Source of the DNA: a virus
Direction: 5' to 3' (one strand)
Length of the DNA stretch: 22,108 bases
Virus record (IMG/VR): IMGVR_UViG_3300048597_000282
Location: 1-22,108 of that record
The translations under genes and the position numbers were made by a program. How positions within the stretch are numbered: position 1 is the stretch's first letter; every line of letters starts with the position of its first letter. Of this stretch, positions 316 through 22,015 are shown piece by piece. The notes beneath the pieces are model-generated. The model saw only the letters and a list, made by a program, of their open reading frames with translations, did no database searches and was not told the DNA's origin.

Positions 316-1104
316 CTAAACAGGCAAAGGAAAGCCAGCCAGTTTACAGCTATCGGTGATAGCAGTTTTAACCGCAGTGGACTCGGCATCATAGAGGGTG
401 GTTTTCAGCCAAGGAGACTGGAAGTCCAACATCAATGATGGGCGGCGGATCTCATCTAGTGGTAGGTCATCACCATCAATAGTTACCAAGGCAGTTCCGA
501 AAGTGAATTCATAGCCTCCTACACCATTGCTAGCGGGGACGGCGATCGCCGCATTAACCGTACCGTTGTAACCAGCTTTGTTAAGGGCAGCAGGCAAAGC
601 ATGGTAAAAATAGCCACGGTCACCAGGGCTAACATTCAACTGGCAAGTGGCGTTAAACGTCCGACTAACACGCTCTTGAGCACCCTGTTCCCCATAGGCG
701 TGGGTCTTAGCATCAACTTTACCAACCTCCTCGCCATTAGCAATAGAAGTGGTGGGTAGGGTGATTAGCCCGTAGGTTAAAGCTTCATCCCCCAGGTCAA
801 CCGCAGCGGCGGCGGGCTGAATAGCAATAATAGTGCCAGTAGTCTCAACCAATTTAGACTCAGCGGCAACAATGACTTTAGTGCCTTCAAAATAAAGGTA
901 AGTCCCTTTTTCAATCCAGCAATCAACGTCAGCAGACAAATCCGCCGTTTCATCATCTTCAGCAATGGCAGTATCAGCCGCAATTGTGTATTCAGTGGGA
1001 TAAACCTCCTGAATAGGAAAGGCGTGGATTTTAACCAAACTGCCAACAGTACGCACCCCTAATCTAGTATCCCCACCTTGGGCAACGGTAGAATAATCAA
1101 CCAT
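316..1104 (-). CDS. Tail-tube-like protein, paralogue 1
   Basis: A 262-aa protein and the last of three tandem relatives. Residues 1-25 and about 128-247 are almost identical to the next gene upstream (1201-1983). The part between (about 26-115) is diverged and beta-rich, with a motif around CWIEKGTYLYFEG that resembles small beta domains often inserted in virion proteins. The conserved C-terminal part is a plausible tube subunit of a long tail; this is inferred from size, position after baseplate genes and multiplicity, not from a recognised signature. ATG at 1104 has GGAG 9 nt upstream. A weak hairpin separates it from paralogue 2, and CTATAGCTATAG lies upstream, so it may be transcribed independently. 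A major tail or decoration protein are the alternatives. Confidence 0.7.
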   Translation of the reverse strand: MVDYSTVAQGGDTRLGVRTVGSLVKIHAFPIQEVYPTEYTIAADTAIAEDDETADLSADVDCWIEKGTYLYFEGTKVIVAAESKLVETTGTIIAIQPAAAAVDLGDEALTYGLITLPTTSIANGEEVGKVDAKTHAYGEQGAQERVSRTFNATCQLNVSPGDRGYFYHALPAALNKAGYNGTVNAAIAVPASNGVGGYEFTFGTALVTIDGDDLPLDEIRRPSLMLDFQSPWLKTTLYDAESTAVKTAITDSCKLAGFPLPV

Positions 1105-1117
1105 AATAATTTACTCC

Positions 1118-1132
1118 AAACTATAGCTATAG
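1118..1132. repeat. Repeated palindrome upstream of tail paralogue 1
   Basis: AAACTATAGCTATAG occurs here and again, identically, at 1998-2012 upstream of paralogue 2. The last 12 bases (CTATAGCTATAG) are a perfect palindrome and contain TATAGT on the minus strand when read into the flanking T. The distance to the start codon is similar in both cases (about 15 nt). It may be a promoter core or binding site copied with the gene during duplication. Confidence 0.5.
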
Positions 1133-1149
1133 TAGTATCCATTATTAAT

Positions 1150-1177
1150 AATAAAAGCCCCAACAAACGTCAGGGCT
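1150..1177 (-). terminator. Weak leftward terminator between tail paralogues
   Basis: Read leftward, AGCCC (1177-1173) pairs with GGGCT (1160-1156), followed by TTTTATTATTAAT. The stem is only 5 bp with a 12-nt loop, so termination would be partial. If it works, it would set the ratio of the two near-identical tail proteins. Confidence 0.4.
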
Positions 1178-1200
1178 ATCTAACACCAATATGGCAACAA

Positions 1201-1983
1201 TTATGCAGGCAATGGGAAGCCAGCTAACTTGCAACTTTCAGCAATAGACGCTTGCACACTGGCAGATTCAGCCGCATACAAGGTAGTCTTTAACCAAGGA
1301 GATTGGAAGTCTAACATCAGGCTAGGACGGCGAATTTCATCCAATGGTAAATCATCACCATCAACAGTTACTAATGCCGTTCCAAAGGTAAATTCATAGC
1401 CACCAACGCCATTACTAGCAGGTACAGCAATGGCAGCATTAACAGTACCGTTATAACCAGCTTTATTCAGAGCCGCAGGGAGCGCATGGTAGAAATAACC
1501 ACGATCGCCAGGGCTGACATTAAGCTGGCAGGTAGCATTAAAAGTACGGCTCACCCGTTCCTGTGCCCCTTGCTCACCGTAAGCATGAGTCTTGGCGTCA
1601 ACCTTACCTACCTCCTCACCATTAGCAATAGTGGTAGTAGGAAGGGTAAGCAACCCATAGGTTGTGCCCTCAGTGGTAGAAACAATCTCAGCCAGGGCAG
1701 GTTGAATGGCAATACTGGTAGCACTAGTGCCGATAGATTTAGATTCAGCGGCTACAACAAAATTAGAGCCAAAATAAAGGTAAGTACCTTTCTCAATCCA
1801 ACAGGCAACGTTAGCACTTAAAGATGCAGTAACAGCGGCAACGGCGATGGTAGTACCAACAGTTAAAGTGTAAACCGTGGGAGCGACCCCAGACATTTTA
1901 TGGATTTTAACTAAACTCCCAACGGTTCTAACTCCTAAACGAGTATCGCCACCTTGGGCAACAACAGAATAATCAACAGGCAT
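1201..1983 (-). CDS. Tail-tube-like protein, paralogue 2
   Basis: A 260-aa protein. From IANGEE to KTTLY (118 residues) it differs from paralogue 1 at one position (Val for Ile), although the DNA of the two genes differs at roughly a fifth to a quarter of bases where I compared them, mostly in third codon positions. The N-terminal half holds the same beta-rich insert in diverged form (CWIEKGTYLYFGS). Start ATG at 1983 has GAGGA about 7 nt upstream. The gene lies 56 bp after paralogue 3 and has its own CTATAGCTATAG site. Function as tail tube is inferred as for paralogue 1. Confidence 0.7.
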   Translation of the reverse strand: MPVDYSVVAQGGDTRLGVRTVGSLVKIHKMSGVAPTVYTLTVGTTIAVAAVTASLSANVACWIEKGTYLYFGSNFVVAAESKSIGTSATSIAIQPALAEIVSTTEGTTYGLLTLPTTTIANGEEVGKVDAKTHAYGEQGAQERVSRTFNATCQLNVSPGDRGYFYHALPAALNKAGYNGTVNAAIAVPASNGVGGYEFTFGTALVTVDGDDLPLDEIRRPSLMLDFQSPWLKTTLYAAESASVQASIAESCKLAGFPLPA

Positions 1984-2039: not shown

Positions 2040-2816
2040 TCAATCTATCCTTTTAGGTAATCCACACAATGGAATCTGTGCATCTATTAAAGCCTTAATA
2101 GCTTCTGGCTCTGCCCAATAAACAGAAGTTTTTAACCATGGAGCTTGGAAGTTTAAAGTAACACTAGGGCGGCGTAATTCATTAACTGGATTAGCATCAC
2201 CATCTACTGTTACCAATGCAGTCCCAAAGGTAAATTCATAAAGATTTTTACTTTTTAAAACAGGGGCGGCAATTGCCACATAAACCTTACCAGACTGCCC
2301 AGCTTTATTGAGAGCCGCTGGTAATGCTTCATAAAAGTAAGCTCTATCATCAGGGGCTACTATTAACTCACAACTAACTTTTAATGCCCTAGATAATCTT
2401 TCCTCTGTCAACTGTTCCCCTAATAAATGATTCTTAGATGGAATGGTTGCTACCTCTTCATTGTTATTAACATTAGTGGTGGGCAGTGTTAACAGTCCAT
2501 AGGTTGAGCAAGTACCTGATATAGTAGCAAGTGCGGGCTGAATAGCTATGTCGGTTGCACTGGTTCCAATTACTTTAGATTCACTGGGAATAATGAAGTT
2601 AGACCCAAAATATAGATAACTACCTTTTTCCACAAACAAAGCAACACTAGCAGATAAAGATGCGGTAGTTGCCCCAATAGAAGCACTACCAGTTATGGTG
2701 TAAGTTACTGGAGTTTCACCACTACCCAATGATTTGATTTTAACCAAAGTTCCACCAGTACCTATACCTATCCTACTGCTACCGCCACCTGCCACGCCGC
2801 TAAAATCGATAGCCAT
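2040..2816 (-). CDS. Tail-tube-like protein, paralogue 3
   Basis: A 258-aa protein, clearly related to the two genes downstream (shared VEKGSYLYFGSNF, IGTSAT, IAIQPALA, YGLLTLPTT, YEFTFGTALVTVDGD, LRRPS and PWLKTS segments) but much more diverged. It is the first of the three to be transcribed. Its ATG overlaps the stop of the 142-aa gene by one base (TAATG), which suggests translational coupling. The order from diverged to near-identical suggests an old duplication followed by a second one. A distinct role, such as tail terminator or different tube layer, is possible. Confidence 0.65.
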   Translation of the reverse strand: MAIDFSGVAGGGSSRIGIGTGGTLVKIKSLGSGETPVTYTITGSASIGATTASLSASVALFVEKGSYLYFGSNFIIPSESKVIGTSATDIAIQPALATISGTCSTYGLLTLPTTNVNNNEEVATIPSKNHLLGEQLTEERLSRALKVSCELIVAPDDRAYFYEALPAALNKAGQSGKVYVAIAAPVLKSKNLYEFTFGTALVTVDGDANPVNELRRPSVTLNFQAPWLKTSVYWAEPEAIKALIDAQIPLCGLPKRID

Positions 2817-3244
2817 TATAATCTAGTCCTAAACTCATATACTTTAAATTTTAAGTTCCACTGAGGGAAGTTCCCCACTTCAGGATTGGCGGGAATGTAA
2901 ACAATATTTAAACCTTGTAAAATACCAGAACGTTCTAACATCAAAATAGCATTATGCCCTTGCAATCCTGAATGCTCAACTAATGCCAGTCGATAACATT
3001 TATCACTATAAATATCGCCAGCACAAATTGGAAAAGATTCTTTGGTGTCAGGGTAAAGTAAGACAGCTTCTAGTCCTTCAACCTTATTAACTTGGGGAGT
3101 TCTACCAATGGCAAAAGCTACATTTTGAAAGCCAGAAGCATAGGTATATTTTCCCAGTAATCCATAGTTAGTTGGTTGACCATTATTGTTACGGGTAACA
3201 CCTAAAACAGATTCAATTCTAGTCTTAATATCAATGGGATTCAT
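2816..3244 (-). CDS. Tail-associated protein of unknown function
   Basis: A 142-aa protein that I do not recognise as a family. It has no membrane segment and mixed alpha/beta character, ending in a basic FKVYEFRTRL. Its start codon overlaps the stop of the DUF2163-type gene (ATGA), and its stop overlaps the start of tail paralogue 3 (TAATG). This three-gene coupling suggests a structural or assembly part made in fixed proportion to the baseplate hub and tail tube. A tail-terminator or neck role is a guess from position. Confidence 0.6.
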   Translation of the reverse strand: MNPIDIKTRIESVLGVTRNNNGQPTNYGLLGKYTYASGFQNVAFAIGRTPQVNKVEGLEAVLLYPDTKESFPICAGDIYSDKCYRLALVEHSGLQGHNAILMLERSGILQGLNIVYIPANPEVGNFPQWNLKFKVYEFRTRL

Positions 3245-4005
3245 CGCCTTAAATCCTCTTTAGTGGGGAAGAAATGTAAACCTTCTGCAATACCACCCCA
3301 GTTATCTATATTATCAAAGTTATTTTTGCACATTCCCATAGTGCCATCACAGCCGGGAATAATCTTTAATTCGTCCCCTATCTCTACCTCGTAAGGTGGC
3401 GCAACCCTTAAACTCAATCCACCACTTTGGACGGTATCAATGGCTAGTTTATAACCAGCATTGGATCCGGTAGTAAATTCTACATAACCAGCACCTCCAG
3501 ACCAGTTATAAATCAATGCAGGACTAGGCACACTGGCTAAAGTAAATGTTTTATTTCCAGATAACCCTGTAACAGTAGTTGTCACAATAAAACTGTTTAA
3601 GTTAACACCACATCTAGGGTCAGTTAATCGCTTAGACCAACGGCAAGAACGTCCTAATGATTGATGTACTGACTGCTGTAAAATATCTGCTGGTGTTCTG
3701 ATGGTAACTGACCAAGTTTGGTCTGTCTTTTGGACTTGTCCCCATCGACCATTAGCTAAAGTTTTAACTACTTCCCCAGTAATAAAGTCAGCGATAAAAA
3801 CTCTAACCCTTTCACCATTAAACTTACCAGCCCGAAGGTCAAGGTCACTGATTAAATTACTATCAATTAAACCTTTAACGTCTAGATTGTTAGATTCTAG
3901 TGCTGAGTTTTGTTTTACGCTAGATGGGTCGATAGCCCCCTGGGGGTGATAATCAACATCAGCAATAGTTATCTTGCGATCAATAGAGGTAAAACCTAGA
4001 CTCAT
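3241..4005 (-). CDS. DUF2163/BR0599-type baseplate hub protein
   Basis: A 254-aa protein. The N-terminal half has the pattern of the DUF2163/BR0599 phage family: a start of ITIADVDYHP type, then a region around GERVRVFIADF and a GRWGQVQ strand, and the cysteine-containing SLGRSCRWSKRLTDPRCGV block at about residues 116-134. The C-terminal part ends in CDGTMGMCKNNFDN (about 219-232), also typical. In gene-transfer agents and related siphophages this protein forms part of the tail hub next to DUF2460 and the large tip protein. It is transcribed leftward, diverging from the tail-tip gene across only 35 bp. No Shine-Dalgarno is visible before the ATG at 4005. Confidence 0.8.
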   Translation of the reverse strand: MSLGFTSIDRKITIADVDYHPQGAIDPSSVKQNSALESNNLDVKGLIDSNLISDLDLRAGKFNGERVRVFIADFITGEVVKTLANGRWGQVQKTDQTWSVTIRTPADILQQSVHQSLGRSCRWSKRLTDPRCGVNLNSFIVTTTVTGLSGNKTFTLASVPSPALIYNWSGGAGYVEFTTGSNAGYKLAIDTVQSGGLSLRVAPPYEVEIGDELKIIPGCDGTMGMCKNNFDNIDNWGGIAEGLHFFPTKEDLRR

Positions 4006-4040: not shown

Positions 4041-7000
4041 ATGGCTAATGTTGCGCTCGGTCTTGGTGTCAGTTTAGGGCTTAATATGCTTAGTAAAGCA
4101 TTAAGTCCAACTAAGTCTGTTTTTAATCAGACTGAGACTGGCAAGCTAGAAGATGTTAGCACCCGTAAAACTGGGGGGGGCTGGACATTAGCTAAAGTTT
4201 ATGGACGGGTATTGATTAAAGGTTGCCCGATTATCTGGGCTCCACCTAGACGAGAAGAAGCTATTGTTACCAGTGAGACTGAATCTACTGGCGGAGGTAA
4301 AGGTAATAGCAATAATTCAACTACAACAGAAACAACAACCTATCGTTATTATGGCAATTTTGCCTTTGCTATTTGTGATGGCTCGGTAGATAGAATAGTT
4401 CGGATTAGTTTTAATGATGTTGTCTGGTTTAATCGAGATGGTGAATTAGACTCAACTATTGCAGATAATGATTATAAGTTAGAAAATTATTTAACAACTT
4501 ATACCGGCGCAAGTGACCAGAATATTAACACTACGATAGAAGAATTTGAAGGTAATGAAAATGGCGATAAAAATATGCGCCATCTGGTTTATTGTGTAGT
4601 AAGGGATTTTCCCCTTGATAGTTTAGGTGGTGAACTACCTGGGACTATTGATGTAGTAGTAGAAAGAATAAATAGTGAAGCTAATGTTATTCAGAATGTT
4701 ATTTATGAAGTATGTGAATCAGTTGGGTTAATTAGAGATGTTGATGTTGTAGCCCCTGAAGTAGGAGGGGATAGAATCAATGCAATCTATAAACAAGATG
4801 GTAGTAGTGCCGCTGATTTTCTAAATGAAATAATCCAGAGATATTTTCTTCTAAGCTTTACCAACGCCGATGGTCAACTGCAATTTATAAGGGCTGACAA
4901 TGCATCGGCAATTACTCCAGTTGATGTTGGTTGGACTGGCTTAGGGGCAACAGAATATGGTAATGAACCCATCGATCCTTACGATGAAACGATTATTGAT
5001 TCTGGGGAATTGCCGTCAGGAGTTAGTATTACCTACACTGACTTAAATGAAGATTTTAATAGTAATAGTGAATATCGGGCTTATCCGATGGCATTCCATT
5101 ATAATCCCAAGTCAATTAATACCAGTTTGATGATGACTTCGGGGGATGCTAAAACATGGATATGGCGTTACCTAGAAGCAACATGGCAACAGGCTAATCG
5201 TTACAACGTAAAAGTATTACCGGAAGATGGAGCTAATTTAATAGAAGGGCAAACTATAGCTTTTCCATTAGTAGATGGTCAAGACCCTATAACCTTCCAG
5301 ATTGCATCTGTTGTTACTGGAGCTAACCTAATTGCTGAATGTGAGCTTTATACCTATGATGGTGATATTTTTACTGCCCAACCTTTTGTAGGATACAACA
5401 CTAACACAGCCTATACTGGCACGGCTATTCAATTAGCCCCTGACATTGATTGCGATACGGTAGTGGTCAGTAGTGGGGAAACTATTTTTGTTGAAGGGAT
5501 AGATTATGAAATCGATTGTGAGACTGGGCTGTTAACAATCTTGCCGGGTGGAGATATTGATGTTGATACAGAATTAACTATTACTTATAATGCCCCACCC
5601 AGTACAGTAGTTAATCCATCTAATCCTAGTCTTGAAGCTAAAGATTATGGTGAACCAATAATAACAATAGTTGAAACTAATAGGGTTAGAAAAACAGACC
5701 CACCTTGTATATATGCGGCGGTCAATCGTGACGGTGTTGACTTTGGACAAACTACAATCTTTGCCAGGTTTAATGGTGGTAGTTATTCAGCCGTGGCTGT
5801 TACTGTCGCCCCTACCACTAAAGGTACGTTGTCAGGCTCCATGACCAAGGTGGTAGGGCTGGATGAAACCAATACCATTACAGTTATTTTAGATGAAGGA
5901 ACATTATCACCATTAAGCCAGAATCAATTTGACAACCAAGAGGTTATTTTATTGGTTGGAGAGGAACAGATAGTAGCCCGTGATGTTACCTTAGTTAGTC
6001 TCAACACCTATGAGCTTGAATATATCCAAAGGGGCGTTAATGGTACTCCCCCGGTTGCCCATGTTGCCGATGAGTTAATCTATGTCGTGAAAGGTACATC
6101 AGGGCAAGTCGTTAGATTAACAGCTAACGCTGATGCCATTGGTCAAACTTTTGACTTTAAAGCAGTACCCATCGGACGTAACGTAACTGATATTACTAGA
6201 GTCACAACCTACACTGTTCTAGGCATTTATTTTAAACCTTACGCTTCCATTGATGCGACTGCTACGAAAGACAGTGCTGGGAATATAACTATTAGCTGGG
6301 TGGGATTAAATACTGGTTTAAATCCATTAGACCCACAGGTTTATGAAATAGATGTTATTGGAGGTTCCACTCTTTACTTTGACCAACCATTTGCTGATGG
6401 ATTAGTCTTATCTCTTTTATATCCCGTAGCCCAGCAAATTATAGATTTTAGCTCTGCTCAATCAGTTATTGATGTTGAAATTTATCAACTATCTTTAGAG
6501 TATGGAAGAGGCTATGTTGGAGAGTTTGAGTTAACGCCTACTCTGCTAGACTTGCCCCCTATTGTCGATGATTTTGCCCCTAGGCAGGGTGATATAGATA
6601 CGGTTGTTACAATCTATGGTTCCCGATTTACAGCGGCTACAAGTGCCGAAATAAATGGAGTAGAGATAGATGATTTTGCAGTTGTAAGTGACACTGAAAT
6701 AACTGGAACTGTGGCGACTGGAACTACTACTGGCAAGGTTGAAGTTATCGCCCCTGCTGGCACTGGAATTAGTGTTAGTGATTTTGTAATAGTCAATGGT
6801 GATATAGAGTGGGGGCAAATCACTGGCACTCTAGCCAATCAAACCGATCTGCAAAGTGTCCTGGCTCGCACCAGAATTTACACCACCATCGTCGGCAATG
6901 TCACTGCCCCGGGGGTTGGAGCAACGGTCGATGTCACGGTGGCAGAAAATTATGGCTTTGCTCCCGGTGTTCCGGTCACGTTATTTAGGCAAACCGCTCC

Positions 7001-7565
7001 AGGTCTTGGTGGCGGGGGCTATGCCCAGTTGAATTGCACCGCCGTTGCTGGCAATGTTTTGACTCTATCCGTTGAGGTGATCGGACGCAGGACAACCAGT
7101 AGCTTTTTAGATGGCGATCTTATTGGACCCATTGTGGAGCAAACCGTGGGTGTTTACGGCGGGATTCCTGATGGGTTTCAGTTTATTGATGAAGTCGAAG
7201 AAAACCAGTATTTTGGGACAAATGCAGACAATGAATTGGGCTATCACGACTTACCCACTGGCTCAATCAAAGCCAAAAACATTGAATCAATATCGGCTAC
7301 CAAAACGCTGATTTTAACCGATGCTTATTTCCAATTTCTAACACCCACGGTGTCGTCAGTTATCGTCAAACTGCCCGCCGTTACCGGAACTGATTACTAT
7401 GAGGGAGAAATTATTAATGCAGGGACAGGGACTAACGCTCTAGCTATCCAAGAAAATGACGGGACGGCAATAATTACATTGTCTGATGCTGGGGATGCTG
7501 TTCGTTCCATTTACTACTATTGGGACGGCACTATCTGGCGAGTATTTGAGAGGAGTTTTTACTAA
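4041..7565 (+). CDS. Large tail-tip / receptor-binding protein
   Basis: An 1174-aa protein resembling the large tip proteins of lambda gpJ and gene-transfer-agent type. The N-terminus is glycine/alanine-rich. Residues about 30-210 contain the tip-specific block with ISFNDVVWFN. Residues about 215-420 match the phage-tail_3-like region (VCESVGLI, SSAADFLNEI, then the YNPKSINTSLMM and YNVKVLPEDGANLIEGQ strands). An IPT/TIG Ig-like domain lies at about 836-922 (DFAPRQGDIDTVVTIYGSRF). WGQITGTLANQTDLQSVL (about 924-941) is a linker type common in phage tail fibres, and the remainder is probably receptor-facing. Base composition becomes more GC-rich from about 6815. The gene is on the strand opposite to its structural neighbours and is coupled to the next gene by TAATG. 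Confidence 0.85.
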   Translation: MANVALGLGVSLGLNMLSKALSPTKSVFNQTETGKLEDVSTRKTGGGWTLAKVYGRVLIKGCPIIWAPPRREEAIVTSETESTGGGKGNSNNSTTTETTTYRYYGNFAFAICDGSVDRIVRISFNDVVWFNRDGELDSTIADNDYKLENYLTTYTGASDQNINTTIEEFEGNENGDKNMRHLVYCVVRDFPLDSLGGELPGTIDVVVERINSEANVIQNVIYEVCESVGLIRDVDVVAPEVGGDRINAIYKQDGSSAADFLNEIIQRYFLLSFTNADGQLQFIRADNASAITPVDVGWTGLGATEYGNEPIDPYDETIIDSGELPSGVSITYTDLNEDFNSNSEYRAYPMAFHYNPKSINTSLMMTSGDAKTWIWRYLEATWQQANRYNVKVLPEDGANLIEGQTIAFPLVDGQDPITFQIASVVTGANLIAECELYTYDGDIFTAQPFVGYNTNTAYTGTAIQLAPDIDCDTVVVSSGETIFVEGIDYEIDCETGLLTILPGGDIDVDTELTITYNAPPSTVVNPSNPSLEAKDYGEPIITIVETNRVRKTDPPCIYAAVNRDGVDFGQTTIFARFNGGSYSAVAVTVAPTTKGTLSGSMTKVVGLDETNTITVILDEGTLSPLSQNQFDNQEVILLVGEEQIVARDVTLVSLNTYELEYIQRGVNGTPPVAHVADELIYVVKGTSGQVVRLTANADAIGQTFDFKAVPIGRNVTDITRVTTYTVLGIYFKPYASIDATATKDSAGNITISWVGLNTGLNPLDPQVYEIDVIGGSTLYFDQPFADGLVLSLLYPVAQQIIDFSSAQSVIDVEIYQLSLEYGRGYVGEFELTPTLLDLPPIVDDFAPRQGDIDTVVTIYGSRFTAATSAEINGVEIDDFAVVSDTEITGTVATGTTTGKVEVIAPAGTGISVSDFVIVNGDIEWGQITGTLANQTDLQSVLARTRIYTTIVGNVTAPGVGATVDVTVAENYGFAPGVPVTLFRQTAPGLGGGGYAQLNCTAVAGNVLTLSVEVIGRRTTSSFLDGDLIGPIVEQTVGVYGGIPDGFQFIDEVEENQYFGTNADNELGYHDLPTGSIKAKNIESISATKTLILTDAYFQFLTPTVSSVIVKLPAVTGTDYYEGEIINAGTGTNALAIQENDGTAIITLSDAGDAVRSIYYYWDGTIWRVFERSFY

Positions 7566-7924
7566 TGGCTAATATTTTATACAAAGGTTCTGGCGGTGGT
7601 GGCGCAACAATAGCAGATGTAGGGTCTGTTATTTTCCCTTATCCATTTAATACAACGCAAAGATTAATTGTTACGCCTTACGCCCTATTGTTTGATGAAG
7701 TGCTGGGGGTGGTTTGCACAACGGGAACACTAACCTTAAGCTTTTTGATTAATGGGGTAGGTATAACGGGACTAACTAGCATATCTGTCAATCAGACTCC
7801 ACAGGATATTTCGTCCACAGCGTTAAATACAATGGCAGTGGGAGATGTATTGACTTTTACCATAGCAAGCGCATCAAGCGACTCAAGTTTCCTTAGCTTT
7901 ACCACTAGCTTTATAGATCCATAA
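7565..7924 (+). CDS. Small tail-fibre-associated protein
   Basis: A 119-aa protein beginning with a glycine run (YKGSGGGGATIADVG) and continuing as alternating beta strands rich in Thr, Ser and Val. I see no recognised family. Start ATG overlaps the stop of the tail-tip gene, with GAGGAG 9 nt upstream inside that gene. Size, beta character and location between the tip protein and a LamG-like protein suggest a small tail-tip accessory or capping protein. Function is inferred from context only. Confidence 0.6.
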   Translation: MANILYKGSGGGGATIADVGSVIFPYPFNTTQRLIVTPYALLFDEVLGVVCTTGTLTLSFLINGVGITGLTSISVNQTPQDISSTALNTMAVGDVLTFTIASASSDSSFLSFTTSFIDP

Positions 7925-7925
7925 T

Positions 7926-8621
7926 ATGACTTTATTTAATCACATAATCCAACTAGGAAAACTAATAACAGCCCCGACAGATTGGTATAAAGTTGTTTCG
8001 TCTCGTTACCTCACTTTTCCAACACCCACTTACACTAGATCCAACTTTACCGCAATAACAATTGAATGGAAAAGTGATAGTTTTAATATTCCATTCTCAA
8101 ACGGAGATTTATTTAGTTTTGATGTAAGTTCTGGAAATGAACCTATAAGGGGAGTGGTTTTTGGAGTGGGGCAATTACAACCGACAATAACAGCATCTAC
8201 AACCGCAAGGGTTTTCCCTACTTACCAAATCATAGACAACAATAATGTCTGGATGCATTACGCATTGGCTTTATATCCAAATCCATCCAATCTTTGCATT
8301 GAATTTTACCGCAATGGCTCCCTGCTAAATAGGCAGTTTTTGTCCATAAGCAACATGAGAGCTAGTAACGCTTCATTATTTTTGGGACATAGAAGGGGAA
8401 TTACAACTGACAATAGAATTGATTATCGAATATCCGACTTTAGAATATGGAATTTAAGACGAACTCAAACGCAAATTGCTGACAACATGGACGATATTTT
8501 GGCAGGGCAAGACACCGGGCTTATATCAAGATGGCTTTTTGACGAAGGGACTGGTACTACTGCAACAAATACTGGCGGGGGGAGTAATGGCACTGTTAAC
8601 GCTTCTGATTGGAATATTTAA
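7926..8621 (+). CDS. LamG-like (concanavalin-A fold) tail adhesin
   Basis: A 231-aa protein. The C-terminal two thirds match the LamG/jellyroll pattern: a strand with WMHYALAL, EFYRNGSLLNRQ, a glycine-containing LFLGHRRG, then DYRISDFRIWNLRRTQTQIA (about 162-181) and ISRWLFDEGTGT (about 202-213). Proteins of this fold bind glycans, and in phages they often occur in tail fibres or decoration proteins. It starts two bases after the preceding stop with no clear ribosome binding site, so it is probably coupled. Its stop codon shares a TTAA tetramer with the stop of the convergent DUF2460 gene. Confidence 0.7.
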   Translation: MTLFNHIIQLGKLITAPTDWYKVVSSRYLTFPTPTYTRSNFTAITIEWKSDSFNIPFSNGDLFSFDVSSGNEPIRGVVFGVGQLQPTITASTTARVFPTYQIIDNNNVWMHYALALYPNPSNLCIEFYRNGSLLNRQFLSISNMRASNASLFLGHRRGITTDNRIDYRISDFRIWNLRRTQTQIADNMDDILAGQDTGLISRWLFDEGTGTTATNTGGGSNGTVNASDWNI

Positions 8622-10249
8622 GTGCATTGTGGAACGTCAATAGTTAATCTCACTAAACCTGATCCATGGTTGACGTGCATAATTTTAAAAGAAATAATAT
8701 TGTCAGAAATAAATCCCCTTGCCGCCATTTGTGACAACGAAATAGCATTGTGAGGCTGGGACAAAACTCCCATATCAATGACTCCTTGGATCGCCTCTGA
8801 CAAAGGCATAGTCTCCCCTCCGGGGATGCTGTATGTTTGCCCCCCGAAAACGTAGTTTGTGGTCAGCGGATCATCTATCGAACCATCTGCTAAATTTGGA
8901 TTGTTGCCATCTACAACAACCAAAGCATGGGAGGGAAGATTAATTATCCTGGTGCTTCCATCAAGAGAATAAGCTGAATTAATATCAAAATCAGACTGGA
9001 CAATAAAGGAGAAATCGTCCAAAGCAAAAGCCGATACCGGGAGAACATCCCCCTGAAACATTGACAGGTCAAAAGTTGCTGTAATTGTTTCCCTTGGTTC
9101 GTCAGATGTGGATGCTAGTAATCGCAGATCTGCGGTGTACGTTCCGCCTATCATGCAAGCTAGTGTATTATTCACAAATGTACCAATATCAATATAATGC
9201 GCCCATGTTTTTATTTCATTCTCGCCATTATTCAAAACCTGGATCATATCTAAGCCCGTAACAGTCCATACCGGATTAGACTCCATTTGAGCGTTAAAAG
9301 TATCGCTATCTAATCTAACCAACGTATCCTCAAACTCAAAAGGCACAAGCCGCCCCTTTGATGCCATGAACAGGTTATAGTAACGCACTGCTGACAGGTA
9401 AGGCATGGCATTATCAGCTATTAAATATTTACGACGATTAACGTTTAAACCGTCTTTAACTTCCCTTTTATTATCCGCTAAACTTATCCTGGTTAACTTA
9501 CGATCAGCATAGGTTACGTCAGCTAATGGACTGCCATCAAAAACATAATCATTAGTAGTTTTCCAATCTTCAGCCAGCAAAGGAGAACTGCGATCATAAT
9601 TCATATCCTCAACTAACCTAAAATTAACTGGGATATAAATAGAAGTATCATTAGCTACCCTGGCATCATCAATTGCTCTTTTAATCTGGGTCAATTGTAA
9701 ATCATCAACATCAAAACGCATGGGCAATCTAAACTGACAACTAACGGTCATACCATCATAGTCACCTGTAATTATGCCAGTTTCATAATCAATGGTAGGA
9801 GTAGGCTCTATTAAAGTTTCCCCATCGTAAATTAAAACTGTTCCCTCTACTGGCTTGATAATCGTTTTATAACTGCTAACACTACCTACCGTGTACTTTT
9901 TAACAATGCGACTATTGCCACCTTCAATACCCACTACAATGCCCTGACAATAGCTATCAGCATCAAGAGATTCAGGCTCATGAGAGCAATAATAATCCAA
10001 TGGACATTTAAAGGGAAACGTGCCAGCTTTGCCCTCACTGTCGATAAAAAACTGTTTAAATAAATCATAGTCATCATCCCTTAAAACAAAGTCCGACCCT
10101 TCAATAGTAAACCTAGGTTCAGTAATCTTAGGTATCCTATTTTCCTTACCACCACGGTTTTCTGTTATCTGCGTTGACCACTCTACCGACACACTTAATA
10201 AAGGCTCAGTAGCATAGGTTCTATTCTCATAGATGTTCAACTCAGACAT
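8618..10249 (-). CDS. DUF2460-type distal tail protein with extra C-terminal domains
   Basis: A 543-aa protein. Residues about 15-210 follow the DUF2460 pattern: an N-terminal WSTQITENRGGKENR strand, LFKQFFIDSEG...TFPFKCPLDYY, a TIDYETGIITG turn and the closing LPMRFDVDDLQL. Residues about 210-350 look like a second, diverged copy (VNRRKYLI, YYNLFMASKGRLVPFEFED). The last 150 residues are unrecognised. Members I know are about 200 aa, so this is a more than double-length fusion. In gene-transfer agents DUF2460 is a distal tail protein next to DUF2163. The frame opens at a GTG (10258) with no ribosome site; ATG at 10249 has GGTGG 5 nt upstream and is preferred. It overlaps the adaptor gene by 8 bases. 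Confidence 0.75.
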   Translation of the reverse strand: MSELNIYENRTYATEPLLSVSVEWSTQITENRGGKENRIPKITEPRFTIEGSDFVLRDDDYDLFKQFFIDSEGKAGTFPFKCPLDYYCSHEPESLDADSYCQGIVVGIEGGNSRIVKKYTVGSVSSYKTIIKPVEGTVLIYDGETLIEPTPTIDYETGIITGDYDGMTVSCQFRLPMRFDVDDLQLTQIKRAIDDARVANDTSIYIPVNFRLVEDMNYDRSSPLLAEDWKTTNDYVFDGSPLADVTYADRKLTRISLADNKREVKDGLNVNRRKYLIADNAMPYLSAVRYYNLFMASKGRLVPFEFEDTLVRLDSDTFNAQMESNPVWTVTGLDMIQVLNNGENEIKTWAHYIDIGTFVNNTLACMIGGTYTADLRLLASTSDEPRETITATFDLSMFQGDVLPVSAFALDDFSFIVQSDFDINSAYSLDGSTRIINLPSHALVVVDGNNPNLADGSIDDPLTTNYVFGGQTYSIPGGETMPLSEAIQGVIDMGVLSQPHNAISLSQMAARGFISDNIISFKIMHVNHGSGLVRLTIDVPQCT

Positions 10250-10595
10250 GGAATCCACCGTAATAATTAGTCTTTAAAAAGCGCATTAACCGCTGACCAT
10301 ATTGATTAGCAGTATAATCGCCTGAACCTATATTAGAGACAGCATACTCAACTTCATCATTAAGGCTTTTAACCCGTTTAACATTACCGGATAATAAAGC
10401 GTTGACAGGGTAAGTGTTCTCAACTTCAAACGCCACCCTTAAGGCGATCGCCTGCAATTGTAAGGCTTCAGTCTTTAACCCTTCATACTGGCAAGTCTCT
10501 AGCTCTATCTGTTCAATTAAAGCTTCTAAGACTTCCTCATCTACCCTGCCCTCAAACTCTGGAAACTTAGTCAAAAATACATTAAGTGTTAGCAT
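10242..10595 (-). CDS. Head-tail adaptor / head completion protein
   Basis: A 117-aa, mainly helical protein starting MLTLNVFLTKFPEFEG, then DEEVLEALIEQIELET. This N-terminal 'FPEF' plus paired helices is typical of phage head-tail connector adaptors (DUF4054/gp6-like), which bind beneath the portal. It lies in the leftward operon between small genes and the DUF2460 gene. The start ATG overlaps the stop of the 54-aa gene (TAATG). Confidence 0.65.
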   Translation of the reverse strand: MLTLNVFLTKFPEFEGRVDEEVLEALIEQIELETCQYEGLKTEALQLQAIALRVAFEVENTYPVNALLSGNVKRVKSLNDEVEYAVSNIGSGDYTANQYGQRLMRFLKTNYYGGFHV

Positions 10596-12352: not shown

Positions 12353-13078
12353 TTATAAATTGACTTCAACACGCACCAACTGACCGGCAGCAACATCGGA
12401 CAGCACCTTCAACCCACTCAATTCCTTAGCCCTTGCAATGGTGCCAGTATCAGCAGTAGAACTGATATTAGAATTGGTCTTAGCAAAGGTAAACGTGGTC
12501 GTAGTAGGCACAGCCACAACTGTATAGGTACCGTTCAAAGCAGTAGTAGTCAACCCTGCAATGGTGACAACCTGACCAACCACAAACCCGTGAGCCCCAT
12601 CGGTGGTAATGGTGGCAACATTACTGGTCAAAGCAACGTTAGTAATGCCCAAAGCATCGGCATCAGAACGAATCCGACCTAAAGCTTTATCACCCGCAGC
12701 ACCAGAGGGCATAATGACCCGGTAAAAGACAGAATCACCGTAATCAATCGCATTTTCAGCCAGCATCCAAATGATTGCTTTTTTTGCAACCGTTAGAGAG
12801 AATTTGTCAGGAGTACCAGCATTACCGCCAAAGTTAGCATCAGACTCATAATGAGCCATACCAATCGATACACCAGCAACAGTCTCATCTAGATTTGCAG
12901 GCAATCCTTGACCGTTAGTTTTGTTAGTCAAAACCCGACCAAAAGGAATAGCAGCACCAGTGGCATTGACCATGCCTTCTAAAGTACCCCGCAGGTCAAA
13001 ACCGACGATAGAACCAGCAGGTGCACCCTCATAACCTTTGGGCGACTGTAAAGAATAATTGTCTAAAGCAATAGCCAT
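12353..13078 (-). CDS. Capsid cement / decoration protein with inserted beta domain
   Basis: A 241-aa protein placed between protease/scaffold and major capsid genes, where DUF2190/Gp24-like structural cement proteins are usual. The flanking parts (APAGSIVGFDLRGTLEG; then VAKKAIIWMLAENAIDYGDSVFYR; and the ending AGQLVRVEVNL) fit that family. Residues about 143-212 form a separate beta module with VATITTDGAHGFVVGQVVTI and NGTYTVVAVPTTTTFTF, a type common in many phage proteins, which explains the excess length over a typical cement protein. Start overlaps the upstream stop (TAATG) and has AGGAGG 7 nt upstream. Confidence 0.65.
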   Translation of the reverse strand: MAIALDNYSLQSPKGYEGAPAGSIVGFDLRGTLEGMVNATGAAIPFGRVLTNKTNGQGLPANLDETVAGVSIGMAHYESDANFGGNAGTPDKFSLTVAKKAIIWMLAENAIDYGDSVFYRVIMPSGAAGDKALGRIRSDADALGITNVALTSNVATITTDGAHGFVVGQVVTIAGLTTTALNGTYTVVAVPTTTTFTFAKTNSNISSTADTGTIARAKELSGLKVLSDVAAGQLVRVEVNL

Positions 13079-18950: not shown

Positions 18951-20027
18951 ATGGAATTTTACGTTAACGCTAAAACGTTATCCACTGCTTTAAATATAGT
19001 AGGAAGGAGTATTCCCTCCAAGCCATCTCACCCTATTTTAGGCTCAGTCAAGCTTGACCTGCAAGAGGGGCGGGCTTTTATTTGTGGCTTTGACCTTGCC
19101 ACTGCCATTATCCACACTATAGATGTGGACAGCGTTAAAGGAGTGGGAGAGTCCATTTGCATCCCATATCGGATGCTGAATGACATTTTTGGCAGGCTTG
19201 ATGGTGACTTATTTGTAAGTGAAATTGAAAATGGCATCCAGATTAAAAGCGACACTGGCAAATATAAGTTGGCAGTCCATGCGGCGGCGGATTATCCAGA
19301 ACTCCCAATTTGTGAGGGAGAGCGTATTGCTTTATCGGGCACCGTCTTTAAAGAGGCGATCGCCACAGTAGGCGGATGTGCCAGTAGTGGAGAAACTAAA
19401 CAGGTTTTAACTGGCATCAACTTGGCCACCACTAAAGGCAAGTTGTGTTTTGCCGCCACTAATGGTCATGTTTTGTCTCGGTACTGGTCTGATGGTTGTA
19501 GTGAGGACATCACCGCTACCATCCCTGCTCATGTACTGACTGCCTTTGCTCGTGGCTTAGAAGAAGACCTTACCTTACAGATGGATGAGCAACAGGTTTG
19601 CTTATCCAGTGGCGATGTTACCGTTATCTCTCGACTGTTGGATGGTGCTTACCCTGATGTCACTCAACTATTGCCAGAGGATTACAAGATCAAGGCGACG
19701 GTCAATGGGGCGGAGCTAAAGTCAGCGCTTAATCGCTTAGCCGTATTCACCGACCCCAAAAACCAGATCATTAAGCTAAGCTTTGGCGATCGCCTTACCT
19801 TATCTAGTGAAGTACAGGACATCGGCAATGGTGTGGAGCAGATTGATTGCGAACTAGATGGTGAAGCTATCGAGCTTGCAGGTAATCTCAAATACCTACA
19901 GCTAGGCTTAAACAGCTTGGAAGGGGAAAACCTGACCTTTCAAATCAACCATCCCCGCCATCCGGTCACAGTAAAAGCCAATGACCACTCTATCTTTCTG
20001 TTTATGCCTATTAAATTAGTGGAATAA
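18951..20027 (+). CDS. dnaN: DNA polymerase III beta subunit (sliding clamp)
   Basis: A 358-aa protein with the full three-domain clamp pattern of bacterial DnaN. It has an N-terminal MEFYVNAKTLSTALNIVGRS helix, SIPSKPSHPILGSVKL, ADYPELP at about 112-118, a middle domain with LTGINLATTKGKLCFAATNG, GAYPDV at about 226-231, and the closing IFLFMPIKLVE in place of the usual 'MPMRL' end. Length is slightly short of host DnaN (about 365-390 aa). The ring would tether polymerase to DNA. It is the first gene of a rightward unit with the sigma factor and has its own good promoter and AGAGG ribosome site. A phage-borne bacterial-type clamp is uncommon. Confidence 0.92.
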   Translation: MEFYVNAKTLSTALNIVGRSIPSKPSHPILGSVKLDLQEGRAFICGFDLATAIIHTIDVDSVKGVGESICIPYRMLNDIFGRLDGDLFVSEIENGIQIKSDTGKYKLAVHAAADYPELPICEGERIALSGTVFKEAIATVGGCASSGETKQVLTGINLATTKGKLCFAATNGHVLSRYWSDGCSEDITATIPAHVLTAFARGLEEDLTLQMDEQQVCLSSGDVTVISRLLDGAYPDVTQLLPEDYKIKATVNGAELKSALNRLAVFTDPKNQIIKLSFGDRLTLSSEVQDIGNGVEQIDCELDGEAIELAGNLKYLQLGLNSLEGENLTFQINHPRHPVTVKANDHSIFLFMPIKLVE

Positions 20028-20113: not shown

Positions 20114-20863
20114 ATGACTGTAACAGTAGCAAGACAGACTGCACTACGTTGTACTGGGGTTATGGCTAAAAACATACGATTAAACCCCCTAACCAAGTCA
20201 GAGCAGATAGAACTCTGGCGAGATTTTAAGCCCCTCAAGGATAAGCTCAGGGCTTTAATTGGTAAAGATTTTCGTGGCGGGTGGAAAAAATTAAACTTGC
20301 TAGAAGCCCGCAAGCGCATCCCTGACACGCCAGAGATTAAGCGGGCACAGCGGGCAATGGAAAAGTTGGTAGCTCACAACACTGGCATGGTGGCAAGGGA
20401 GGTACACCGACGTTGGCGACATCATAAAATTGCCAACGCTGATGACTTATTGCAAGCGGGCAAGATTGGCTTAATCTATGCCCTTTATCTTTATGACCCG
20501 TTCCATGATGGTAAAGAGATTAAGTTTAGTAGCTATGCCTTCAGTTGGATTAAGGCTTTAATTGATGAAGAATTACATGGCGATCGCACCATCAAACCTC
20601 CTACGTCTGAGCGTAAATATCAATTTGCCTTTATCACCAGCATCAAAGGAGGTGATGGGGAGATTATGGACATTTTTGATATGTTAGACGATGAAAGAGC
20701 AGACCTATTGTCCAAACAGGTTGAAGATGCTCTAACGCCAGCAGAATATACCGCCTTTACCCAAGAGCCGTTAGAGGCAATGTTAGAGTTAGGCGTTAAT
20801 TACAATCAGTTGGAACAGATTAAAGAATCTGCCAAGCAACGTATATTAGATGCTATTGCTTGA
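20114..20863 (+). CDS. Small sigma-70 family factor
   Basis: A 249-aa protein. Residues about 84-165 match sigma region 2: LVAHNTGMVAREVHRRW, ADDLLQAGKIGLIYALYLYDPF, KFSSYAFSWIKALIDEEL and IKPP, covering the core-binding and -10-recognition helices. The C-terminal 43 residues (LTPAEYTAF...LGVNYNQLEQIKESAKQRI) look like a shortened region 4. Region 3 appears largely missing. It would redirect RNA polymerase to phage promoters; the TTAATATAGT boxes are candidates. The ATG at 20114 has AGGTG 5 nt upstream; Met17 is a less supported alternative. Downstream of the clamp and a 41-bp palindrome; its 3' end overlaps the HTH regulator by 11 bp. Confidence 0.8.
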   Translation: MTVTVARQTALRCTGVMAKNIRLNPLTKSEQIELWRDFKPLKDKLRALIGKDFRGGWKKLNLLEARKRIPDTPEIKRAQRAMEKLVAHNTGMVAREVHRRWRHHKIANADDLLQAGKIGLIYALYLYDPFHDGKEIKFSSYAFSWIKALIDEELHGDRTIKPPTSERKYQFAFITSIKGGDGEIMDIFDMLDDERADLLSKQVEDALTPAEYTAFTQEPLEAMLELGVNYNQLEQIKESAKQRILDAIA

Positions 20864-21646: not shown

Positions 21647-22015
21647 TTAATTTGTTAGCCATCCTGCTATGGCTTTGCCAAATAATACATCTAGCCCTAA
21701 GCGGCTGACGGGTGTAGAAACCACATAAAAACGTGCGGATTTAACGCCAGTTTGGAGTGAAATGGTGATGTTGTAATAGAGGTTTGGTTTTAATTCATCT
21801 GGTAAGTTATCAAGTATCCTTCCTTCTAGATATGCCAGGGGATTATCCACACCGGGCAGGCTAAGGTCTTTAGGTGGTGTGGTTTCCTCTAACGTTGCCC
21901 TAACTGTTTTATAGGTAGTACCAGTAAAGGCAGGCTCTCCCGTGTAGGGGTCAAAGCTGGTGGGGGTGGAGGGATTAACGGGGATAGTAATGGTGGCGTT
22001 GGCAAGTCCTAGCAT
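21647..22015 (-). CDS. 122-aa protein, possible virion connector
   Basis: A 122-aa protein. The beta-rich sequence starts MLGLANATITIPVNPSTPTSFDPYTGEPAF, split here by Pro/Thr-rich turns, then TVRATLEETTPP, LYYNITISLQTG and SARFYVVSTPVSRLGLDVL. Size and strand pattern resemble small head-closure or tail-completion proteins of phages, but I recognise no family. No ribosome binding site is seen before the ATG; TATTCT lies only 4 nt upstream, so a leaderless transcript is possible. It diverges from the membrane peptide gene at 22046. Confidence 0.5.
   Translation of the reverse strand: MLGLANATITIPVNPSTPTSFDPYTGEPAFTGTTYKTVRATLEETTPPKDLSLPGVDNPLAYLEGRILDNLPDELKPNLYYNITISLQTGVKSARFYVVSTPVSRLGLDVLFGKAIAGWLTN

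Follow-up and report, generated by a model that had tools for sequence, protein, structure and literature searches.

Two tandem virus genes, here called P1 and P2, encode proteins with a nearly identical core of 124 residues, while the silent sites of the same codons are saturated and keep no detectable memory of a common origin. The core protein is frozen relative to silent change, and an insert in front of it varies freely between the two copies. Our leading reading, held tentatively and at slightly less than an even chance, is that P1 and P2 are duplicates of a tail-tube gene, present in tandem in this lineage only, that co-polymerise in the same tube, and that the shared rings froze the core while the silent sites ran to saturation. 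What we infer in this reading is the tube identity, the co-assembly, and co-assembly as the cause of the freeze.

The tandem genes and their surroundings

The window, by which we mean the whole stretch of DNA analysed, is a virus record of 22,108 bases. On its minus strand, head genes (maturation protease, major head protein, head completion) are followed by the genes of a DUF2460 protein, a Gp84/BR0599-type baseplate hub protein (3241..4005; PF09931 5e-26, PF09356 2e-15, phrog_778 8e-41) and a 142-aa protein (2816..3244), and then by three tandem paralogues: P3 (2040..2816, 258 aa), P2 (1201..1983, 260 aa) and P1 (316..1104, 262 aa), the latter two being putative tail-tube proteins. P1 is 81% identical to P2 in amino acids and 72.5% in nucleotides. 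P3, at 57% to P2 and 51-52% to P1, is the most diverged copy, yet it follows immediately on the 142-aa gene, at the place that the sole tube gene takes in the related phages. In each of the three phages the gene of the 142-aa protein immediately precedes the tube gene. This protein is possibly a tail terminator; family and phage searches with it gave no match.

The leaders of P1 (1105..1155, minus strand) and P2 (1984..2039, minus strand) are similar, with a local alignment score of 29.5 compared to 11.5 +/- 2.1 for shuffles. Both contain CTATAGCTATAG, which consists of two copies of the palindromic CTATAG and precedes the ribosome-binding site of P1 (1121-1132), P2 (2001-2012) and the G001 tube gene described below (7980-7991). 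The other relative, G002, has one CTATAG near 13042, and the P3 leader has none. A weak sigma-70-like -10 element (TATAGT) overlaps CTATAGCTATAG in the P1 leader. Between P2 and P1 lies a hairpin resembling an intrinsic terminator (1156..1177, minus strand; AGCCCTGACGTTTGTTGGGGCT and TTTATTATTA), which is a consensus match only, the count of such hairpins not exceeding that in shuffles.

Several other genes of the window deserve mention. The plus strand encodes an Rcc01698/Phage-tail_3 tail protein (4041-7565), and the tail-tip genes of this strand (4041-8621) together with the DUF2460 gene sit between the head completion and hub genes (region 4041-10258). Near its C-terminal half the 546-aa DUF2460 protein contains the segment TGLDMIQVLNNGENEIKTWAHYI, which forms the N-terminus of the hub protein in both relatives, and this arrangement looks like a rearrangement with gene splitting and fusion. 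A sliding-clamp-like protein (18951-20027; DnaN matches of about 28%) and an RNA polymerase sigma factor (20114-20863; phrog_351) both have relatives in G001 and G002. The last gene of the window encodes 122 residues (21647-22015). Because its G001 orthologue adjoins a 3736-aa tape-measure ORF (35041-46251; the searched part matches tape-measure families at 6.8e-32), the tape measure of the window is probably located just beyond the right end. The G001 tape measure predicts, from its sequence, an unusually long tail. The tube genes also contain GCGATCGC, seen directly in the sequence at about 541-550 in P1, near 8553 in L004 of G001 and near 13781 in L007 of G002, which we take to be HIP1-like sites and which suggests a cyanobacterial host. 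The virus is probably a long-tailed siphovirus and a cyanophage.

A conserved core with randomised silent sites

The core comprises residues 115-238 of P1 (391..762, minus strand) and 113-236 of P2 (1276..1647, minus strand), with 122/124 amino acids and 290/372 bases identical. A preliminary description of this DNA had reported a 118-residue stretch with a single Ile/Val difference and DNA differing, in the part compared, at roughly a fifth to a quarter of the bases, almost all of them silently. The codon alignment bears out both, the stretch covering residues 121-238 of P1 and 119-236 of P2, and the core DNA being 22% different with nearly all differences silent. The silent divergence is not only high, as described, but exceeds the earlier estimate and is in fact saturated: at identical residues 47 of the 120 degenerate codons match, while 48.1 +/- 4.6 are expected from a permutation that shuffles the codons within each gene and so uses each gene's own codons. 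Four-fold degenerate sites differ at 40 of 62 positions, and pairwise maximum likelihood (GY94) sets a 95% profile bound of about 4 below which the core dS does not fall, with an omega of at most about 0.004, so that the low silent divergence that had been named beforehand as speaking against the description was not found. Among the ten core pairs of the family P1/P2 is the only one whose codon identity does not exceed chance (z -0.25), the other nine ranging from 0.24 to 2.44 with a mean of 1.3. The longest exact run shared by the cores is 13 nt (permutation 17.2 +/- 4.2, P 0.10), and over all coding parts of the gene it is 15 nt (17.8 +/- 4.0, P 0.31). One serine of the core (column 223) has switched between TCN and AGY codons.

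Three simple causes can be set aside. A shift in composition is too small, with a GC3 of 0.43 in P1 and 0.34 in P2, and the permutation already uses the codons of each gene. A recent plain duplication is rejected because a core dS below about 4 is excluded. Gene conversion homogenising the core would have left residual silent similarity, of which there is none, and is thus absent from the core.

The remaining parts of the proteins behave differently. The first 26 codons have 25/26 identical residues, whereas the insert (residues 27-114 of P1, 763..1026; residues 28-112 of P2, 1648..1902; both minus strand) has 47/85 in the domain-wise codon alignment, and the last 24 codons, which vary like the insert, have 15/24. 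P1 and P2 therefore combine the same core with different peripheral parts. A P1/P2-specific omega for the N-terminus and insert does not differ from that of the rest of the family (2dL 0.1-1.7, codon model), in agreement with the earlier statement that the N-terminal insert has been free to vary. A Fisher test suggests lower silent divergence in N-terminus and insert than in the core (P 0.025), but we do not rely on it, since the N-terminus gives low values whichever pair is taken and the profile for the insert is compatible with saturation as well. With silent sites saturated over almost the whole gene, the ages cannot be put in order.

Single-copy orthologues in related phages

Searches of IMG/VR viral contigs, GTDB species genomes, GenBank phages and plasmids found only two related contigs, the IMG/VR contigs 3300047564_004575 (IMGVR_UViG_3300047564_004575, here G001 with the tube-like gene L004) and 3300043446_004515 (G002 with L007). 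The pair is thus known from one contig and is compared with two relatives; all three sequences may be incomplete, and the tandem site is contiguous in each of them. L004 and L007 are single copies, 68-69% identical to P2, and have a 142-148-aa gene and a Gp84-type hub as neighbours. Accordingly, the tandem pair is lineage-specific, and it is dispensable for this tail type since the relatives have one copy. The preliminary description had named relatives lacking one copy as evidence against it, and both relatives lack one; yet co-assembly in a phage that has the two copies is not refuted by this.

Compared with P1/P2 or with one another, the L004 and L007 cores have about 30% of their residues changed, at similar silent divergence; for this single-copy pair the core omega is about 0.09 and the pairwise dS 2.65. 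Core and insert drift alike between L004 and L007 (35/122 and 22/85 differences, P 0.75) but unequally between P1 and P2 (2/124 and 38/85, P 1e-15). The P1/P2 pattern does not belong to the protein as such. Because 48 of the 122 core positions shared by P1 and P2 vary in L004/L007, the freeze goes with the presence of two copies, and given the drift of the single-copy cores any constraint would have begun with the duplication. Furthermore, at 23 core positions P1 and P2 carry a common residue that none of the other copies has, so the two derive from one duplication of an ancestor that had already diverged from the others. For a segment of 124 codons, P1/P2 is the extreme case among all orthologous pairs of the three contigs.

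In a five-sequence codon model of the core, an own omega for P1/P2 beats a single omega. With branches kept realistic, at most 10 synonymous substitutions per site each, the improvement is 2dL 25.6-32.1 (P 4e-7 to 2e-8), and with unlimited branch lengths it is 8.9-10.0 (P 0.002-0.003), where a single omega can be upheld only if the branches leading to L004, L007 and P3 take up about 70-200 synonymous substitutions per site. None of 1000 simulations at the family omega of 0.047-0.09 gave at most two amino acid changes together with a four-fold divergence of at least 0.645, whatever the age; the pattern requires that omega not exceed about 0.005 and that dS have reached or passed saturation. An old duplicate under the ordinary constraint of the family is thereby rejected, and the preliminary view that the pair is neither a recent plain copy nor an old free copy stands.

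Clock models covering P1, P2, L004 and L007 describe the pair in two ways. If amino acid change slowed to 5-8% (13-21-fold) after the duplication, lnL is -1587.06 with one site class and -1570.53 with two. If instead silent change became 32-53-fold faster on the P1/P2 tips, lnL is -1587.29 and -1570.61, and the duplication would be only about 5-7% as old as the L004/L007 split is deep. In either model the rate change coincides with the duplication. Under the clock a protein slow-down and a silent speed-up are equally likely, and sequence alone cannot separate them.

Are P1 and P2 tail-tube proteins?

Calling them tail proteins, as had been done before, is reasonable from the context but finds no counterpart in homology or fold: PHROG, Pfam, NCBIfam and PDB searches of the five tube-like members returned no match, and a profile comparison with one annotated tube protein gave a probability of 0.3%. 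AlphaFold2 models built from five-sequence alignments had a pLDDT of 34 and 38, too poor for a fold search. In all three phages, however, the tube-like genes are the last of the head-tail cluster, after the Gp84-type hub and the 142-aa gene. G001 has a tape measure, lying away from the tube-like gene, a portal and a terminase, and among the part of its ORFs that was scanned there is no other recognised tube gene. Because of this gene order and the lack of another recognised tube gene among the scanned ORFs, P1 and P2 are probable tail-tube proteins.

The tape measure of Bacillus phage SPP1 has about 1000 residues. The SPP1 tail tube consists of about 40 rings (PMC8718954). Scaled accordingly, a tape measure of 3736 residues would correspond to roughly 140-150 rings and 850-900 subunits per tail, if the proteins indeed form the tube. 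With such a long tape measure in a relative, tube protein is probably needed in bulk, which might be a reason to keep extra copies.

Co-assembly or silent recoding

In our leading reading the tail-tube gene would have been duplicated in tandem in this lineage only. Both copies would be made in bulk from their similar leaders and would co-polymerise in one tube, which might be decorated in two ways because the inserts (residues about 27-114) and the C-terminal ends differ. With the copies in shared rings nearly any core substitution in either of them would be disfavoured, so that the core protein would freeze while the silent sites drift on to saturation without gene conversion. This is supported by the core omega of P1/P2 compared with that of the single-copy pair. 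In addition, the silent differences look like random codon choice with exact runs that are not significantly shortened, the insert has diverged in protein, and the serine switch lies in the core. On the other hand, the freeze must cover the 48 positions that are free in single-copy orthologues, not all of which are probably at interfaces, a phage tail protein with an omega near 0.002 would be an extreme case, and relatives build their tails with one copy. The strict shared interface proposed in the preliminary description thus survives as a constraint by co-assembly that is as likely, by lnL, as silent recoding, but not as a general property of the protein, since single-copy cores drift.

Silent recoding against recombination, the second proposal of that description, fits equally well by the clock models and is in our view possible but rather less probable than not. 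Here the tandem duplication would be young. Two direct repeats of 780 bp about 100 bp apart would be lost by recombination although two copies pay, and synonymous variants that break the homology would be favoured until no long match remains. The protein would look young because it is young, and only the silent sites would look old. In the same doubtful way, P1/P2 could be a natural pair whose silent sites were selected apart against tandem deletion and which is kept because a long tail needs much tube protein. The core protein and the P1/P2-specific similarity of the noncoding leaders do look young, but the leader is partly conserved in the relatives too and is therefore not a clean clock. 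Anti-recombination recoding is expected to leave tandem copies with nearly the same protein over saturated silent sites, as seen here. The longest shared exact run of 15 nt (13 nt in the core against a permutation mean of 17.2, P 0.10) and the lack of excess codon identity in P1/P2 alone point the same way, and engineers stabilise repeats in the same manner. However, neither the over-dispersion of silent change nor the run-length test is significant, the identity corresponds to random codon choice, and selection should relax well before full randomisation. The serine switch offers no easy silent step, and the protein divergence of insert and C-terminus speaks against youth of the entire gene, unless these segments came in by a swap. 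We rank the freeze slightly above recoding because it does without selection on silent sites, which would have to be proved.

It is unlikely that the pair is ordinary, with all members of the family having a tube core omega of about 0.001-0.004, with extremely old splits to L004/L007 and P3, and with P1/P2 simply as the sole close pair sampled. The single-omega model with unlimited branches is only 4.4-5.0 lnL units worse (P 0.002-0.003), and conserved enzyme segments of G001-G002 come near to P1/P2 (terminase 116/124 aa at a four-fold divergence of 0.53, helicase 118/124 at 0.49), but the required 70-200 synonymous substitutions per site contrast with the dS of 2.65 for the L004-L007 core and of 0.45-1.03 for neighbouring capsid genes. 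Least probable of all is a xenologue, one copy having come from another phage lineage with a strictly conserved core and persisting in tandem, where an exact copy could not, by its silent divergence: phage mosaicism, the core codons of P2, which share more with P3 (z 2.4) than with P1, and the inserts and C-termini of P1 and P2, which resemble the L004/L007 copies in different patches, would fit, but a core of the donor type was not found in IMG/VR, GenBank phages, plasmids or GTDB species genomes, and an extremely constrained core would still be needed in the donor's branch.

Comparison with known systems

The nearest parallel to co-assembly is SPP1, where one tube is built from gp17.1 and gp17.1* at 3:1, two forms with the same core (PMC8718954). 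P1 and P2 likewise share a core and differ in peripheral parts. SPP1, however, uses one gene and frameshifting and hence one core DNA, whereas here there are two genes with randomised silent sites; co-assembly has been demonstrated in SPP1 and is proposed for P1/P2 from the genes. The tube-like genes of G001 and G002 are orthologous, with the same neighbours and the CTATAG leader motif, but differ from P1/P2 in being single and in having diverged cores. That self-assembling proteins can be constrained after duplication has been described as a principle, known as paralogue interference or retained heteromers (PMC6711710), in which divergence is slowed as both copies enter one complex, as we infer for P1/P2. 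That work is based on yeast paralogues and simulations, while the slow-down proposed here comes from one pair and is far stronger. Synthetic tandem repeats have been synonymously recoded against recombination, with identical protein (100%) at about 70% DNA identity (PMC4083281). Those were designed by people, whereas P1/P2 is natural and selection on its silent sites is a proposal. Tandem tube genes showing such a pattern did not turn up in our searches of the open-access literature.

Implications

Silent sites commonly serve as a neutral clock for duplicates, and here the protein and the silent sites of one pair disagree strongly, in a manner peculiar to this pair. If the freeze is true, a protein that drifts freely on its own can become frozen once it enters a polymer with its copy. 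If recoding is true, selection for repeat stability can recode silent sites, and P1/P2 would parallel in nature what engineers do by recoding. Both outcomes matter for the retention of tandem duplicates in phages and for the dating of duplicates by dS.
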